This document shows, piece by piece, positions 57,014-64,000 of a stretch of DNA of 64,000 bases. Position numbers and translations under genes: made by a program. The stretch's first letter is position 1; the number at the start of each line of letters is the position of its first letter. The notes under the pieces were generated by a model that was not told the DNA's origin, did not search any database, and was given only the letters and a program-made list of their open reading frames with translations. Origin of the DNA: an uncultured Bacteroidales bacterium (GTDB lineage Bacteria > Bacteroidota > Bacteroidia > Bacteroidales > Muribaculaceae); contig CANSAP010000008.1 of NCBI GenBank assembly GCA_947644715.1, positions 1 through 64,000 on the forward strand, in the 5' to 3' direction.

Positions 57014-58882
57014 ATGGAACTCATCAAGCATGAATGCGGCATCGCTATGGTGCGCCTGCTAAAACCGCTCAGCTATTACAAAGAGAAGTATGGCACAGAG
57101 CTGTATGGACTCAACAAGCTGTACCTGCTCATGGAAAAAGAGCACAACCGAGGTCAGGAAGGAGCCGGAATAGGCTGTGTCAAGATGGACACGCCTCCCG
57201 GCTCCGAATATATTTTCCGCGAACGTGCAGAGGGATCCGGTGCAATTCAGGAAATTTTCGGAAACGTACACCGGGCTATCGACAACGCCCGCAAGCTTGG
57301 TGAGGCGGAACCGTTTGTAGGTGAGGTCTATATGGGACACCTCCGTTACTCCACCACCGGACGCAGCGGCCTGAGCTATGTCCACCCCTTCATGCGGCGC
57401 AACAACTGGAGTGCACGCAACATGCTTCTGTGTGGCAACTTCAACATGACGAATGTCGACGAAATCTTCAATCAGATTACAGCCACCGGACAACACCCCC
57501 GCCTCTATGCCGACACCTTCCTGCTGCTTGAGCAACTCGGCCACGCGCTTGACCGTGAGAATGAACGCTTGTTTGCCATTCATCATGCAGCCGGTGAAAC
57601 CGGAATGACATTGGCCACATCCATTGCCCGCGAGCTGAACACGGCCAACATGCTTCGCCGATGCGCTCCGACATGGGATGGAGGCTACGTTATCTGCTCC
57701 ATCATCGGCAACGGTGACATGCTTGCAATGCGCGACCCGCGTGGAATTCGTCCGGCATTCTATTATGCCGACGACGAGGTGGTGGTCGTAGCCTCCGAAC
57801 GTCCGGTGATTCAGACGGCATTCGATCTTCCGGTAGCTGCAGTCAAGGAGCTTGCCCCCGGCTCTGCGATAATCGTAGACCGCGACAGCACCTGGCGCAT
57901 TGAGCAGATTCTGCCGCCTCTCGAGAATCAACGCTGCTCTTTTGAACGCATATACTTTTCTCGTGGCTCTGACGCCGACATCTATAAAGAAAGGAAAGAA
58001 CTGGGCAGACTGCTCGGTCCAAAAGTGCGCGAAGCCCTTGACGACGACCTCGACAACTCCGTATTCTCATTTATTCCCAACACGGCCGAGGTGGCGTTCT
58101 TTGGTCTCGTGGAAGGATTGGAAGACTATCTAATCAGCAAAAAGATTACTGACATACAAAGCCTTGAAGCCTCAGGCCGTTTGGACAGGGAACATCTCGA
58201 GGCTATCCTGAGCCGCCGCATCCGCCGCGAAAAAATTGCGATTAAAGACATCAAGCTGCGCACCTTTATAGCCGAAGGTGAGAGCCGAAATGACTTGGCC
58301 TCGCATGTATATGATGTAACCTACGGCTGTGTCCGCTCAGACGTCGACAATCTCGTGGCCATCGACGACTCCATCGTGCGTGGCACAACGCTACGCCAGA
58401 GCATCATCCGCATTCTCGACCGACTTCGCCCCCGCAAGATAGTAATCGTCAGCAGTGCTCCTCAGGTGCGCTATCCTGACTGCTACGGCATCGACATGAG
58501 TCGCATGGGAGAGTTCATAGCCTTCCGCGCCGCCATCGAACTGCTTAAGCAGCGAGGCATGTCAGAGCGTATAGACGAGGTTTACAAGCTGTGCAAAGCT
58601 CAGGAGAACCTTCCCAAAGAGGAGGTCGTGAATCATGTGAAAAAGATTTACGAACCCTTCACCGATGAGGAAATCTCCGATAAGATTGCTCAAATGCTCA
58701 CTCCGGAAGGAACCCGCGCACAAGTAAAAATTGTTTACCAGACCCTTGAGGGGCTGCACCGGGCCATCCCCAATCACCCCGGAGACTGGTATTTCTCAGG
58801 CAATTATCCCACTCCCGGCGGCAACCGCCTTGTGAACCATGCCTTTATTAACTACTACGAAGGACGCAGTGAAGCACGCTGA
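57014..58882 (+). CDS. purF: Amidophosphoribosyltransferase with intact glutaminase motifs (622 aa)
   Basis: MELIKHE-CGIA putative propeptide and Cys nucleophile, HNRGQEGAGIG, PRPP loop VAIDDSIVRGTTL. Confidence 0.85.
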   Translation: MELIKHECGIAMVRLLKPLSYYKEKYGTELYGLNKLYLLMEKEHNRGQEGAGIGCVKMDTPPGSEYIFRERAEGSGAIQEIFGNVHRAIDNARKLGEAEPFVGEVYMGHLRYSTTGRSGLSYVHPFMRRNNWSARNMLLCGNFNMTNVDEIFNQITATGQHPRLYADTFLLLEQLGHALDRENERLFAIHHAAGETGMTLATSIARELNTANMLRRCAPTWDGGYVICSIIGNGDMLAMRDPRGIRPAFYYADDEVVVVASERPVIQTAFDLPVAAVKELAPGSAIIVDRDSTWRIEQILPPLENQRCSFERIYFSRGSDADIYKERKELGRLLGPKVREALDDDLDNSVFSFIPNTAEVAFFGLVEGLEDYLISKKITDIQSLEASGRLDREHLEAILSRRIRREKIAIKDIKLRTFIAEGESRNDLASHVYDVTYGCVRSDVDNLVAIDDSIVRGTTLRQSIIRILDRLRPRKIVIVSSAPQVRYPDCYGIDMSRMGEFIAFRAAIELLKQRGMSERIDEVYKLCKAQENLPKEEVVNHVKKIYEPFTDEEISDKIAQMLTPEGTRAQVKIVYQTLEGLHRAIPNHPGDWYFSGNYPTPGGNRLVNHAFINYYEGRSEAR

Positions 58883-60683
58883 ACCCCGCCCTCTCGAACT
58901 TCTTGCTCCCGCCCGCGACCTGCAAGTGGGTCGAGCCGCAATTATGCATGGTGCCGATGCCGTCTATATCGGTGCCTCGGCCTTCGGCGCACGTGCCTCC
59001 GCAGGCAACTCGGTTGAAGACATCGCCGAGCTGTGCCGCTTTGCTCATCAATTCAGAGCGAAGGTCTACACTACGGTCAATACGATTGTCTACGAACGCG
59101 AACTGGAAGCAGTGCGCCGCCTGATTGACAAGCTATACCAAGCCGGCGTAGATGCAATCATAGTTCAGGACATGGCTCTGCTCCGGATGCAGCTCCCCCC
59201 TATTGAGCTGCACGCATCCACACAGTGCGACACCCGCACCCCCGAAAAGGCGGAGTTTCTGCAAGAGGCAGGATTCTCGCAGATTGTCCTTGCCCGCGAA
59301 TTGACTCTGCCGGAAATCAAAGCGATAACGGAAAGAGTTAAAGTTCCGGTGGAGGTCTTTATTCACGGAGCGCTCTGTGTCAGCTATTCAGGTCGATGCC
59401 ACGCTTCCCAAGCGCTGTGCGGCAGAAGCGCTAACAGAGGTGAATGTGCACAGATTTGCCGCCTCCCCTACACTCTGACCGACGCTAACGGAAAAGTCCT
59501 GGCGCGCGACAAGCATCTCCTCTCTCTGCATGACTTCAATACCACGGCCTCGCTGCAACAGCTTGTGGATGCCGGAGCATCCTCTTTCAAAATCGAAGGA
59601 CGCCTGAAGGATGAAGCCTACGTCAAGAATATTACGGCTCACTACCGCCGGAAGCTTGATGAAATCATTGCTGCGAACCCCGACCGCTACCGCCGCGCCT
59701 CATGCGGAACGGTGAATCTCAATTTTACCCCCTCACCACAGAAGAGTTTCAACCGAGGCTTCACTTCCTATTTCCTTAACGAACGCAGGCCGGCATCCAT
59801 CGCATCCATCTACACTCCCAAATCGCTGGGTGAGCCGATGCAAAACCTTGACGACCTGCACAACGGCGACGGACTATCATTCTTCACCTCTCGTGGAGAA
59901 TACACCGGGTTTCTCGTGAATGGTGTCAGAGGAGGCAGACCGGTGCCGAACAAACCGATTCAGATTCCCAAGAACGCATCTTTCTTCCGCACCACTGATG
60001 TCGCCTGGGACAAGACCATGTCTCGCACCGACACAGCCTCCCGACGCATCTCCTTGAAAATTAAACTGTTCAGCAACAGGATTGAAGGAGAAGATGAGCG
60101 CGGAGTGCGTGTAGTCCTTCCTCATTCTCTTCAGCCTGAAGCTGCCCGCAAGCCACAGAACATACGCGCTTACTTCGAGAAGTTAGGGGATACAATCTAT
60201 TCCCTGGCTGATTTTGAACTGCATCTGCCCGCCGACAGTTTCATCCCGGCATCAGCTCTGACGGCTCTGCGCCGCTCCCTCACAGAGGCTTTAGACTCTG
60301 CAGCCGTCGCCACTTACCGGCGCAATCTCAGAGCGAAGGAGAATCCTGAGGCGAAATATCCGGCAGAGAAGCTCGACTACCGCGACAACGTGGCCAACTC
60401 ATTGGCTGACAAATTCTACCGCGACCATGGTGTTAAGCAAATCGAACCTGCCATGGAAACAACCGCAGCTCCCGCCAAAGCGGGCACTGTGGTCATGACC
60501 ACCCGCCATTGCGTGCTGCGCGAGCTTGGGCTTTGCCTGCGCGAGCTGAAAGCCAATGGTCGGGAGCTGCCCAAACTGCCCTTAACCCTGCGTTCATCTG
60601 CTCGCAACGGCTCTTCGGGAAGCACTGCCACACTGCATGTCCGGCCCGACTGTGCCCGCTGCGAGATGCAGATTACGCTCTGA
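58839..60683 (+). CDS. Peptidase U32 family protein
   Basis: LELLAPARDLQVGRAAIMHGADAVYIG; EVFIHGALCVSYSGRCHASQALCGRSANRGECAQICR; true start may be a GTG near 58869. Confidence 0.9.
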   Translation: MPLLTTTKDAVKHAEPRPLELLAPARDLQVGRAAIMHGADAVYIGASAFGARASAGNSVEDIAELCRFAHQFRAKVYTTVNTIVYERELEAVRRLIDKLYQAGVDAIIVQDMALLRMQLPPIELHASTQCDTRTPEKAEFLQEAGFSQIVLARELTLPEIKAITERVKVPVEVFIHGALCVSYSGRCHASQALCGRSANRGECAQICRLPYTLTDANGKVLARDKHLLSLHDFNTTASLQQLVDAGASSFKIEGRLKDEAYVKNITAHYRRKLDEIIAANPDRYRRASCGTVNLNFTPSPQKSFNRGFTSYFLNERRPASIASIYTPKSLGEPMQNLDDLHNGDGLSFFTSRGEYTGFLVNGVRGGRPVPNKPIQIPKNASFFRTTDVAWDKTMSRTDTASRRISLKIKLFSNRIEGEDERGVRVVLPHSLQPEAARKPQNIRAYFEKLGDTIYSLADFELHLPADSFIPASALTALRRSLTEALDSAAVATYRRNLRAKENPEAKYPAEKLDYRDNVANSLADKFYRDHGVKQIEPAMETTAAPAKAGTVVMTTRHCVLRELGLCLRELKANGRELPKLPLTLRSSARNGSSGSTATLHVRPDCARCEMQITL

Positions 60684-60694
60684 GTTCAGCATTA

Positions 60695-61309
60695 TTAAGG
60701 TCTTATGCCGGTTATGCCCATAAAGGCTAACCCCATAAGAGCTGCTATGATAAGCGTTATGCCCGTGCCTCGCAAAGGCGCGGGTATCGCTTTATCTACC
60801 AGGCGCTCCCGAATGGCTGCAACGCAAATGATTGAAAGCAGCCAGCCTGTTCCGGCTCCCGCGCCATAAATTGTAGCAATCAGAGCATTTCCAAACTCCT
60901 TTTGCTGCATGAAAAGCGCTGCGCCAAGAACAGCACAGTTCACTCCTATAAACGGGAACTTCGCACCCGAAGAGTTTTTTTGCACACGGCCGCACTTGGT
61001 GCTTATCATCTTCATAAGCTGCACAAGGCAGGCTATAACTGCGATAAACGCGGGGAGGCTCAGATAGCTGAAATCCCGGGAGGCGAACCCTTCACTGAGC
61101 CACCGGAGCGCTCCGGGAGCAAGGATATACTGACTGATACACCAACTGACCGGCATTGCAACAACAAGCACCAGCCACACGGCCACCCCCATTCTGCGGG
61201 CTGACCTCACATTGCCGGATGCAACCAGGAAGGTGAGCAGACCCAGAAAATAGGCAAGCACCAAGTTGTCGATAAACACCGACCTTATGAACAGGTTCAA
61301 ACTCTCCAT
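60695..61309 (-). CDS. nqrE: Na+-NQR subunit E-like
   Basis: VFIDNLVLAYFLGLLTFLVAS, GVNCAVLGAALFMQQ, LRGTGITLIIAALMGLAFMG; co-oriented with nqrD/C/B. Confidence 0.87.
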   Translation of the reverse strand: MESLNLFIRSVFIDNLVLAYFLGLLTFLVASGNVRSARRMGVAVWLVLVVAMPVSWCISQYILAPGALRWLSEGFASRDFSYLSLPAFIAVIACLVQLMKMISTKCGRVQKNSSGAKFPFIGVNCAVLGAALFMQQKEFGNALIATIYGAGAGTGWLLSIICVAAIRERLVDKAIPAPLRGTGITLIIAALMGLAFMGITGIRP

Positions 61310-61313
61310 ACCA

Positions 61314-61934
61314 TCAATTCTTTAATTCCCCCTTTCTGCGCGCACGTCTGATCCAGATTACGCAAGCCACAATCAGCAACGCTGCCGGAGGCAGAAGCAT
61401 GACATTATTGTTCATATACCCCGCGTCATACCAGCACTGAGGCACTACCCGGCTACCCCAAAGTGTGCCGCTTCCGGTCAGTTCGCGAACGATGGCCACA
61501 ACAATCAGAACCACTCCATAGCCAATGCCACTCCACAGTCCTTTAACCAATGCGCGCAGCGGTCCGCAGTGCAGAGCAACCGAGGCTACCTGCCCCATGA
61601 GTACAGAGTTAGCCACAATCAATCCGACATACACTGAAACCAGCATACTGACCTCAAAGGCTACGACCGTCAGCACCTGCTCAACGAGCACCGACAGAAC
61701 AACCACTATCACAATCAGCACCGTCCTGCGCGCAGCGCCCGGAATAGTGCGACGTAACATTGATGCCACGCAGTTAGCCAACGCCAATACCGCAATAACC
61801 GACAGAGCCATGAAGACTGCCGCTTTAAGCTCGGTTGTGACAACCAGCGCCGGGAATATACCCAACAGCCATGCCGACTCGGAAGTCCTGCTATTCCGCG
61901 ACCCGGATGATGAATTGAATGATGCTTTACTCAT
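61314..61934 (-). CDS. nqrD: Na+-NQR subunit D-like
   Basis: LLGIFPALVVTTELKAA, LSVYVGLIVANSVLMGQ-type region, RELTGSGTLWG. Confidence 0.83.
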   Translation of the reverse strand: MSKASFNSSSGSRNSRTSESAWLLGIFPALVVTTELKAAVFMALSVIAVLALANCVASMLRRTIPGAARRTVLIVIVVVLSVLVEQVLTVVAFEVSMLVSVYVGLIVANSVLMGQVASVALHCGPLRALVKGLWSGIGYGVVLIVVAIVRELTGSGTLWGSRVVPQCWYDAGYMNNNVMLLPPAALLIVACVIWIRRARRKGELKN

Positions 61935-61938
61935 GCGC

Positions 61939-62652
61939 TTATCTTGAGAGCGTTCTGAAGAATTGTGTGTAAGGTTCGAGGCTTTCTCGCAACATGCGGC
62001 TCACACCCTGTGAAGTAACAGTGCTGCCGCTCACTCCATGCACCCATGAGCCTGAACGCGGTTCCCGACCCGGCTTGCAGATGACCACTGACTCAAACCG
62101 CCCACGTTTTGAAAATATATCCTTACCCTCAAATTGAGAGGAGAATGCAGCCTTTTCAATCTCAGCGCCCAGCCCTGGTGTCTCACTCTGCTGTGCAAAG
62201 TAAGCGCCATATATTGTGCTTCCATTGGCATCAAAAGCCACATAGCCCCAAATCGGACCCCACAAACCGCAGCCATAGACCGGCACAATATACTTTATCC
62301 CATGCGGGGTCGCACACTCGAACACCGCCAGCTTCCTTCTGTCAGCCGGAGCCTTGAAAATCGCAGGCAGCCTCATGCAAGCATTGAAGGCATGTTCCGG
62401 ATTCCTGTCAGCCACGACACCATGATAGTTTACAATATAGCTCCTCTTGATGTGGGTTGAGAAGACTTCCGCCACATTCTTGCCATCAGCTGAAATGCGA
62501 GCTGCGCGCAATATTCCGCAGCGCACCTCATTCGCCTTATTCTCCTGCTGCTTTGGACGCGACCACTGATTCACTAACCCGAGCAGCCCTACCGCAACCA
62601 GAATCAGCAGCCCGGAATAAACTATTGCGTAAATCCTCCCCTGTTTCTTCAT
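61939..62652 (-). CDS. nqrC: Na+-NQR subunit C-like
   Basis: VPVYGCGLWGPIWGYVAFDANGSTIYG...ETPGLGAEI; VSGSTVTSQGV near C-terminus. Confidence 0.85.
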   Translation of the reverse strand: MKKQGRIYAIVYSGLLILVAVGLLGLVNQWSRPKQQENKANEVRCGILRAARISADGKNVAEVFSTHIKRSYIVNYHGVVADRNPEHAFNACMRLPAIFKAPADRRKLAVFECATPHGIKYIVPVYGCGLWGPIWGYVAFDANGSTIYGAYFAQQSETPGLGAEIEKAAFSSQFEGKDIFSKRGRFESVVICKPGREPRSGSWVHGVSGSTVTSQGVSRMLRESLEPYTQFFRTLSR

Positions 62653-63842
62653 CTCTGCATGGCATTAAGACGGCGCAAGCGACGGTTAATATTTACTCTC
62701 ACCACACATCTGTCAATGAGCGATGCAAAAGCATTCATAATCAATACGGCTGACATGGCACCCTCCGGATAACCCAGGCCGTAACAACGAATAACTATGG
62801 TCAACAGACCTATAAGGAATCCGTACACGCACTGGCCGCTGCGTGTGCGACAAGCCGTCACGGGGTCAGTAGCCATAAAGACTATCGCAAAGGCAAACCC
62901 ACCGACACACAGCTGCTGCAAGGGCGACAGATATGCAGCCGGACAAAGTGGCGACGCACTGACCCAAGCTATGCAGGCCATCAGAACCGCTCCCGCTACC
63001 CCACTGAGCATTATCCGCCAGCTGCCGACACCGCTAATCAACAAAATAGCAGCGCCAATCAAGATGCAAAGTGTTGAGGTTTCTCCCCAGGAACCCGGCA
63101 TGAATCCGAGGAAACAATCAAGAGTGCTGAGCGGATTCCCAACGGCGTCGGTCAGTTGCACATCGGCAGGATGCAGTGCCGATGAAATTTGACCCAGGGG
63201 AGTCGCACCGCTGAATCCATCGACCGCTGCACTGCCGCCAAGGCTCACAAAGACTTGGTCGCCGCTCATCGCAGCCGGATAAGCAAAGAAGAGGAACGCA
63301 CGGGCAATCAGAGCTATATTAAAGATATTATAGCCGGTGCCCCCAAACGCCTCTTTCGCAAATATAACGGCAAAGGCAACTGCAACAGCAAGCATCCACA
63401 GCGGGGTGTCTATGGGGCATATCATCGGAATGAGCAATCCCGTCACCAAGAATCCATCTTGCACGTCACGACCGCGTATCTGCGCAGCCGTAAACTCTAT
63501 ACCCAGCCCCACTACATATGCCACTACAATCTGAGGCAACGCGCGAGCCGCACCGTAAAGAAATGTCTCCCAAAAGCCGCAGGTCAGACCGCATGCCAGA
63601 TTATGCTGAAAGCCTATGTTATAAAAACCGAAGAGCAGACTGGGCAATAACGCAAGAACCACGAGCATCATTGTGCGCTTGGAATCATTAGCATCATGCA
63701 CATGCACTCCGGCAGTAGAGGTAACGTTTGGCGTATAGAGAAAAGCGTAGACTCCATCGAAGACACTATGCAGTTTCTTCCATCGTCCTCCAGGCTCGAA
63801 TTGCGGTCTGAGTCTGTCTAAATGTCGCTTGAATCCCTTCAT
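62649..63842 (-). CDS. nqrB: Na+-NQR subunit B-like
   Basis: LHSVFDGVYAFLYTPNVTSTAGVHVHDANDSKRTMM; VDGFSGATPLGQ flavinylation motif; 397 aa. Confidence 0.88.
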   Translation of the reverse strand: MKGFKRHLDRLRPQFEPGGRWKKLHSVFDGVYAFLYTPNVTSTAGVHVHDANDSKRTMMLVVLALLPSLLFGFYNIGFQHNLACGLTCGFWETFLYGAARALPQIVVAYVVGLGIEFTAAQIRGRDVQDGFLVTGLLIPMICPIDTPLWMLAVAVAFAVIFAKEAFGGTGYNIFNIALIARAFLFFAYPAAMSGDQVFVSLGGSAAVDGFSGATPLGQISSALHPADVQLTDAVGNPLSTLDCFLGFMPGSWGETSTLCILIGAAILLISGVGSWRIMLSGVAGAVLMACIAWVSASPLCPAAYLSPLQQLCVGGFAFAIVFMATDPVTACRTRSGQCVYGFLIGLLTIVIRCYGLGYPEGAMSAVLIMNAFASLIDRCVVRVNINRRLRRLNAMQR

Positions 63843-64000
63843 CTCCCTTGATTATCGATCTGTTTTGCGCGCAGGCTCATCAGGGCGTCGCGCACAATCT
63901 GCTGAAGCGGCTGCTTGGATGTGTCAACAAACTCCGGCAGGGCAAAATCTTCGGGAGCAACCTCGTAGATGCCAAGTTGCTCCATCCGCTCAATATCCCC
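63839..64000 (-). CDS. nqrA: Na+-NQR subunit A-like, C-terminal fragment (truncated by window edge)
   Basis: Translated tail GDIERMEQLGIYEVAPEDFALPEFVDTSKQPLQQIVRDALMSLRAKQIDNQGR*, matching the NqrA C-terminal pattern; ATGA overlap with nqrB start. Confidence 0.65.
   Translation of the reverse strand, partial: GDIERMEQLGIYEVAPEDFALPEFVDTSKQPLQQIVRDALMSLRAKQIDNQGR

Follow-up and report, generated by a model that had tools for sequence, protein, structure and literature searches.

An Na+-NQR operon lacking nqrF and three of the four NqrD-NqrE cluster cysteines in a Muribaculaceae genome

Na+-NQR, Rnf and the present operon

In the canonical Na+-NQR, electrons from NADH pass via the FAD and the [2Fe-2S]-cluster of NqrF to the [2Fe-2S]-cluster of NqrD-E, from there to the FMN of NqrC, and finally via the FMN and the riboflavin of NqrB to quinone (PMC10643135; PMC12174285). 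The step through the NqrD-E cluster crosses the membrane, the FMN of NqrC facing the periplasm (PMC10643135). Four cysteines of NqrD and NqrE are the ligands of this intramembrane cluster (PMC9325719), and in Vibrio cholerae the single change NqrD-C29A suffices to abolish it (PMC10643135). Asp133 of NqrD and Glu95 of NqrE matter for Na+ uptake (PMC9325719), Glu95 being required for Na+ pumping (PMC10643135; PMC9325719), and a salt bridge between Glu95 of NqrE and Arg71 of NqrD stabilizes one conformation of NqrD-E (PMC10643135). Rnf (RnfABCDGE) has a homologous core. For the transition from RNF to NQR, an nqrABCDE stage without input subunit has been postulated (Reyes-Prieto et al., 2014; PMC4014512), and according to the same model RnfC lost its cofactor sites after the input had been lost and was retained as NqrA (PMC4014512).

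The operon described here lies at the end of a 64,000-nucleotide stretch of DNA (the window) from the metagenome-assembled genome (MAG) of an uncultured Bacteroidales bacterium of the gut. With the Na+-NQR of V. cholerae (structures 7xk3 and 8a1t) and of canonical Bacteroidales it shares five of the six subunits, the gene order, the predicted folds of NqrD and NqrE, the FMN-binding threonines, and Asp346 and Asp397 of NqrB; it differs in that NqrF is absent, three of the four NqrD/NqrE ligands are lost, and the exchanges D133K in NqrD and E95K in NqrE are present. It differs from Rnf, of which the same genome carries a separate complete copy, in lacking RnfB, in ending at nqrE, and in that its first gene product is by three Pfam domains NqrA and not RnfC. 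The postulated nqrABCDE stage likewise is a five-gene operon without input in which a subunit is kept despite ligand loss; the present operon, however, is secondarily derived from a complete NQR, and here the membrane cluster itself is lost. The V. cholerae NqrD-C29A variant also lacks the NqrD-E [2Fe-2S]-cluster (PMC10643135), but it is an engineered single change in a complex with NqrF present. In the open-access literature searched, no report of a natural NQR that lacks both NqrF and the cluster came to light.

The site of the missing nqrF

Window and contig together carry an intact nqrA-B-C-D-E set as one operon on the minus strand (NCBIfam and Pfam matches). The 3′ part of nqrA occupies 63839..64000 and the gene continues to C8:65200, just past the window edge (full gene C8:63839-65200, 453 amino acids, with the NqrA N-terminal, second and SLBB domains all found by Pfam). 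It is followed by nqrB (62649..63842, 397 amino acids), nqrC for the periplasmic FMN subunit (61939..62652, 237 amino acids), nqrD (61314..61934, 206 amino acids) and nqrE (60695..61309, 204 amino acids), the last two being accelerated genes for whose products the fold is predicted to be preserved. NqrB and NqrC exceed the TIGR cut-offs; the equivalog cut-offs are missed by NqrD (180 vs. 245 bits) and by NqrE (198 vs. 248 bits). The best structural matches of the AlphaFold models of NqrE and NqrD are NqrE and NqrD with TM-scores of approximately 0.80 and 0.78, respectively, but the models reach no more than modest confidence (pLDDT 68 and 73) and canonical relatives served to guide them, so that they are evidence for fold compatibility only.

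Between nqrE and the gene for a U32 peptidase (58839-60683, plus strand, convergent with nqrE) there are only 11 bp (60684..60694), and it is at this site, a rearrangement junction, that relatives have nqrF. No remnant of nqrF was found at the junction. An earlier note made from the DNA letters alone had given the order, coordinates and strand of the nqr genes, all of which proved correct on re-examination, and had reported that nqrF is present neither in its usual slot nor elsewhere in the window. This absence extends to the genome (2.4 Mb, 97.85% complete), a draft MAG of 73 contigs of which the rest was covered by family profile searches: there was no match to TIGR01941 at E ≤ 1e-3, and thus no orphan nqrF, whereas a Bacteroides genome used as positive control gave an nqrF match.

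The closest relative compared, G070 (record JAAVFJ01; 86% identity in PurF, 96% in RnfA and 93% in SmpB), has a canonical nqrABCDEF operon with nqrF directly after nqrE. In G070 a priA-nqrABCDE block and a smpB-purF-U32 block are on separate contigs, and the two flanks of the present junction, purF-U32 and priA-nqrA, both match the synteny of G070. Because the blocks are apart in G070 and adjacent here, two blocks have been joined where nqrF should stand. It could be argued that in a 73-contig draft of 97.85% completeness nqrF resides in the unassembled 2% or that the contig is chimeric, a standard pump being in operation. This we consider very improbable, since the U32 gene closes the slot within 11 bp on one and the same contig, both flanks agree with G070, and the fact that two genes have each lost cluster ligands (see below) is independent evidence of a lost electron path. 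As a separate observation, the U32 peptidase is only 64% identical to that of G070, far below the values for the adjacent purF and smpB products.

The cluster ligands, the Na+ residues and their conservation in relatives

Alignment with HMMER to the 7xk3 chains shows that three of the four cluster ligands (V. cholerae numbering; the NqrD alignment is ungapped) are replaced: Cys29 of NqrD by F27 (TTC, 61854..61856, minus strand), Cys112 of NqrD by S110 (TCT, 61605..61607, minus strand) and Cys26 of NqrE by L25 (CTC, 61235..61237, minus strand). Only C125 of NqrE, equivalent to Cys120 (60935..60937, minus strand), remains. The codon positions and replacements are exactly those named in the earlier note. 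Canonical congeners keep the cysteines, and in NqrD and NqrE neither a cysteine at the three changed sites nor a compensating one was found. Compensated frameshifts were considered for the odd N-terminus of NqrD and for residues 106-118 of NqrE, and were rejected since the other frames do not restore the peptide of the relatives.

The charge is reversed at two Na+-uptake residues. According to the alignment, K131 of NqrD (61542..61544, minus strand) replaces Asp133 (role from PMC9325719) and K100 of NqrE (61010..61012, minus strand) replaces Glu95, the salt-bridge partner of NqrD R71 (roles from PMC10643135 and PMC9325719), so that the Glu95-Arg71 pair is now a Lys-Arg pair. The set of Na+-uptake residues is therefore incomplete, only Asp397 of NqrB being kept. 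In contrast to the ligands of the iron-sulfur cluster, the flavin sites are retained: the threonine for covalent FMN in NqrB is T214 (V. cholerae T236; 63201-63203, minus strand) and that in NqrC is T211 (V. cholerae T225; 62020-62022, minus strand), both by alignment. Also kept are the gate and Na+-path residues of NqrB, D326 (= D346) and D377 (= D397) included. Within NqrB, changes are most crowded at residues 125-130 (63453-63470), where the genus-invariant HEIQEG reads RDVQDG.

The loss of the cysteines and of nqrF is no trait of the family, and G070 itself retains the full set of four cysteines. In 96 of 96 other nqr loci all four cysteines are present wherever the residue is readable (unreadable sites are N-masked or truncated by a contig end), and nqrF is present wherever the contig extends. 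Among the 111 genomes of the genus, 87 have nqrF above the cut-off and 86 have a strong NqrD match, and of these 86 the present genome alone is without nqrF. Among the 394 genomes of the order, the present genome shares a strong nqrA without nqrF at a completeness of at least 90% with a single other, a 680-contig assembly which also lacks NqrE. Other relatives without the cysteines were found neither among 48 relatives of NqrB (contig search) nor in an NqrD-based search. The losses of the cysteines and of nqrF are thus derived and unique in the sample, in which they are known from one MAG. Some candidates were set aside: six order-level genomes with nqrA and an absent or weak nqrF have no NqrE but only an Rnf-like RnfA, which fits fragmented assemblies or loss; the divergent NqrD of congener G075 is due to N-masked sequence; and the in-frame TGA in the nqrD of congener G086 is a natural stop just beyond the conserved protein. 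The complete nqr operon is missing in about 20 of the 111 congeners (e.g., G029, G004, G007, G033, G080 and G087), five of them at 99–100% completeness, i.e., loss of the operon is recurrent in this Muribaculaceae genus.

Rates of change and selection

In the NqrB tree the present protein groups with that of G070 (support 98/96), its branch being 0.51 long vs. 0.088. In the NqrD tree the long branch is poorly placed. Since the latter tree is unreliable, it is from the NqrB tree and from best-hit identities that the operon is judged to be vertically inherited. Branch dN values (present genome/G070) are 0.165/0.122 for NqrA, 0.134/0.046 for NqrB, 0.169/0.096 for NqrC, 0.409/0.012 for NqrD and 0.260/0.027 for NqrE, as compared with 0.047/0.046 for PurF, 0.012/0.009 for RnfA and 0.025/0.032 for RnfE. 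The ratio to G070 is thus 34-fold for NqrD, 10-fold for NqrE and 1.4- to 3-fold for NqrA to NqrC, and is 1 for the controls. The residues invariant in 12 congeners are kept to 92% in NqrA, 91% in NqrB, 84% in NqrC, 52% in NqrD and 67% in NqrE. Together these patterns indicate that the acceleration is centered on the iron-sulfur half of the complex.

It should be noted that in the codon models dS is saturated for NqrA, NqrC and NqrD (at the bound or >6), which makes the branch omegas unreliable, and for this reason tests based on dN, on invariant sites and on BLOSUM scores were used instead. The changes at invariant sites score +0.95 in NqrB (−0.62 in neutral simulations), +0.28 in NqrD (−0.71) and +0.30 in NqrE (−0.66), and for none of the three did any of 1000 neutral simulations reach the observed conservativeness. 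In NqrA and NqrC the invariant-site changes, which are few (11 and 13), are indistinguishable from neutral. If neutral, approximately 4.7 stop codons would be expected in nqrD and 2.7 in nqrE (approximately 7 together), and none is observed; a neutral phase of the whole operon as short as 0.04 substitutions per site would already reduce the probability of zero stops to approximately 0.008. All frames from nqrA to nqrE are open, and nqrD and nqrE are free of frameshifts. From the conservative changes in NqrB, NqrD and NqrE and the lack of stops it follows that the membrane subunits are probably still selected, at least for fold. The argument of the earlier note that intact frames speak against simple decay is in this way strengthened.

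The GC3 of the nqr genes is 0.53–0.59 vs. 0.62–0.69 in G070, the drop being 0.09–0.13 for nqrB, nqrD and nqrE and approximately 0.05 for nqrA and nqrC, while PurF, RnfD, RnfE and most of the Rnf genes are steady. This suggests weak or perhaps reduced expression of the operon.

These data have to be weighed against a further explanation, namely that the operon is in the middle of decay: with nqrF lost, the complex would be dead or close to it, and the frames of nqrA to nqrE would be open only because too little time has elapsed. We take this as a serious possibility, if short of an even chance. All five subunits evolve faster than in G070, GC3 has dropped, the changes in NqrA and NqrC are compatible with neutrality, and with the operon repeatedly lost in the genus, also from the five nearly complete genomes, a transient relic is plausible; the GC3 drop, the near-neutral changes in NqrA and NqrC and the recurrent loss also speak against a retained role. 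An operon of pseudogenes, however, should not have open frames throughout, nor substitutions in NqrB, NqrD and NqrE that are far more conservative than neutral ones, and the missing stops and frameshifts are difficult to reconcile with it. Moreover, relative to G070, NqrD and NqrE have changed far beyond NqrA to NqrC, a pattern which a single death of the whole operon does not give.

Electron routes and a possible residual role

Of the centers of the canonical path, the first three, i.e., the FAD and [2Fe-2S]-cluster of NqrF and the [2Fe-2S]-cluster of NqrD-E, are absent here, and the remaining ones could therefore at most equilibrate with the quinone pool, from NqrB out to NqrC. As an input subunit was not found genome-wide and the obligatory NqrD/NqrE center is without three of its four ligands, the genes imply that the complex must have lost NADH:quinone activity along the known path. 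The genome encodes a complete Rnf operon of its own (RnfB, C, D, G, E and A, with all four cysteines; contig C32, L006:2265-7232), which serves as an internal control for the cysteine loss, and in addition ApbE, cytochrome bd and the complex I subunit NuoH. With a complex I subunit, Rnf and cytochrome bd present, the loss of NADH function would be tolerable, and with ApbE present NqrB and NqrC are predicted to be capable of being flavinylated.

The explanation that we favor, at about an even chance of being correct, is a secondarily "headless" Na+-NQR with a retained but reduced role. After the split from G070 a rearrangement would have fused nqrE to the purF-U32 segment, nqrF being gone, although the order of these events may have been different. 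Without NqrF no electrons would reach the [2Fe-2S]-cluster of NqrD-E, selection on the center and on gating would be relaxed, and the three ligands, Asp133 of NqrD and Glu95 of NqrE would subsequently have been replaced. Complex I and Rnf could presumably carry out the oxidation of NADH and of ferredoxin. What persists would be the quinone site of NqrA, NqrB with riboflavin, FMN and the Na+-path residues, and NqrC with FMN, while NqrD and NqrE would serve as a membrane scaffold on which selection, though weakened, still acts. A quinone-linked flavin module or an Na+ conduit without transmembrane electron input would be the most likely remaining function. That NqrABCDE actually works without NADH input or intramembrane [2Fe-2S]-cluster, for example by exchanging electrons between quinones and a partner in the periplasm via the flavins of NqrB and NqrC, possibly coupled to Na+ movement, is in our estimate unlikely.

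In the earlier note the complex was regarded as divergent or neofunctionalized, possibly with another electron donor. The loss of standard NADH:quinone activity agrees with our analysis. The second part, a new function or donor, goes beyond the data. With relaxed constraint on NqrD and NqrE, lower GC3 and recurrent operon loss, a complex that is degenerate, functional in part or decaying slowly is about as likely. A neofunctionalized flavoprotein complex would transfer electrons from quinol via the flavins of NqrB and the FMN of NqrC to a periplasmic acceptor, or would be fed at NqrC by a periplasmic donor. The location of the FMN of NqrC on the periplasmic side (PMC10643135) and the retention of both FMN threonines, of the gate and Na+-path residues of NqrB and of ApbE would fit such a route. 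We nevertheless consider it distinctly unlikely, since no partner gene for an alternative electron route was found in the operon neighborhood and the changes resemble losses rather than gains.

Whether a remodeled complex or a pump partway to loss, the complex, known from one MAG, cannot work as the pumps of its relatives do. Its pattern of loss is a natural dissection of the parts of the pump that depend on electron input: the input subunit, the cluster ligands and the NqrD/NqrE coupling residues are gone, and the flavin and quinone modules are kept. As a secondary counterpart of the postulated nqrABCDE stage, it makes testable whether NqrA, NqrB and NqrC can be under selection without transmembrane electron transfer. 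As for the genome's own Rnf complex, its most rapidly changing subunit is RnfB.
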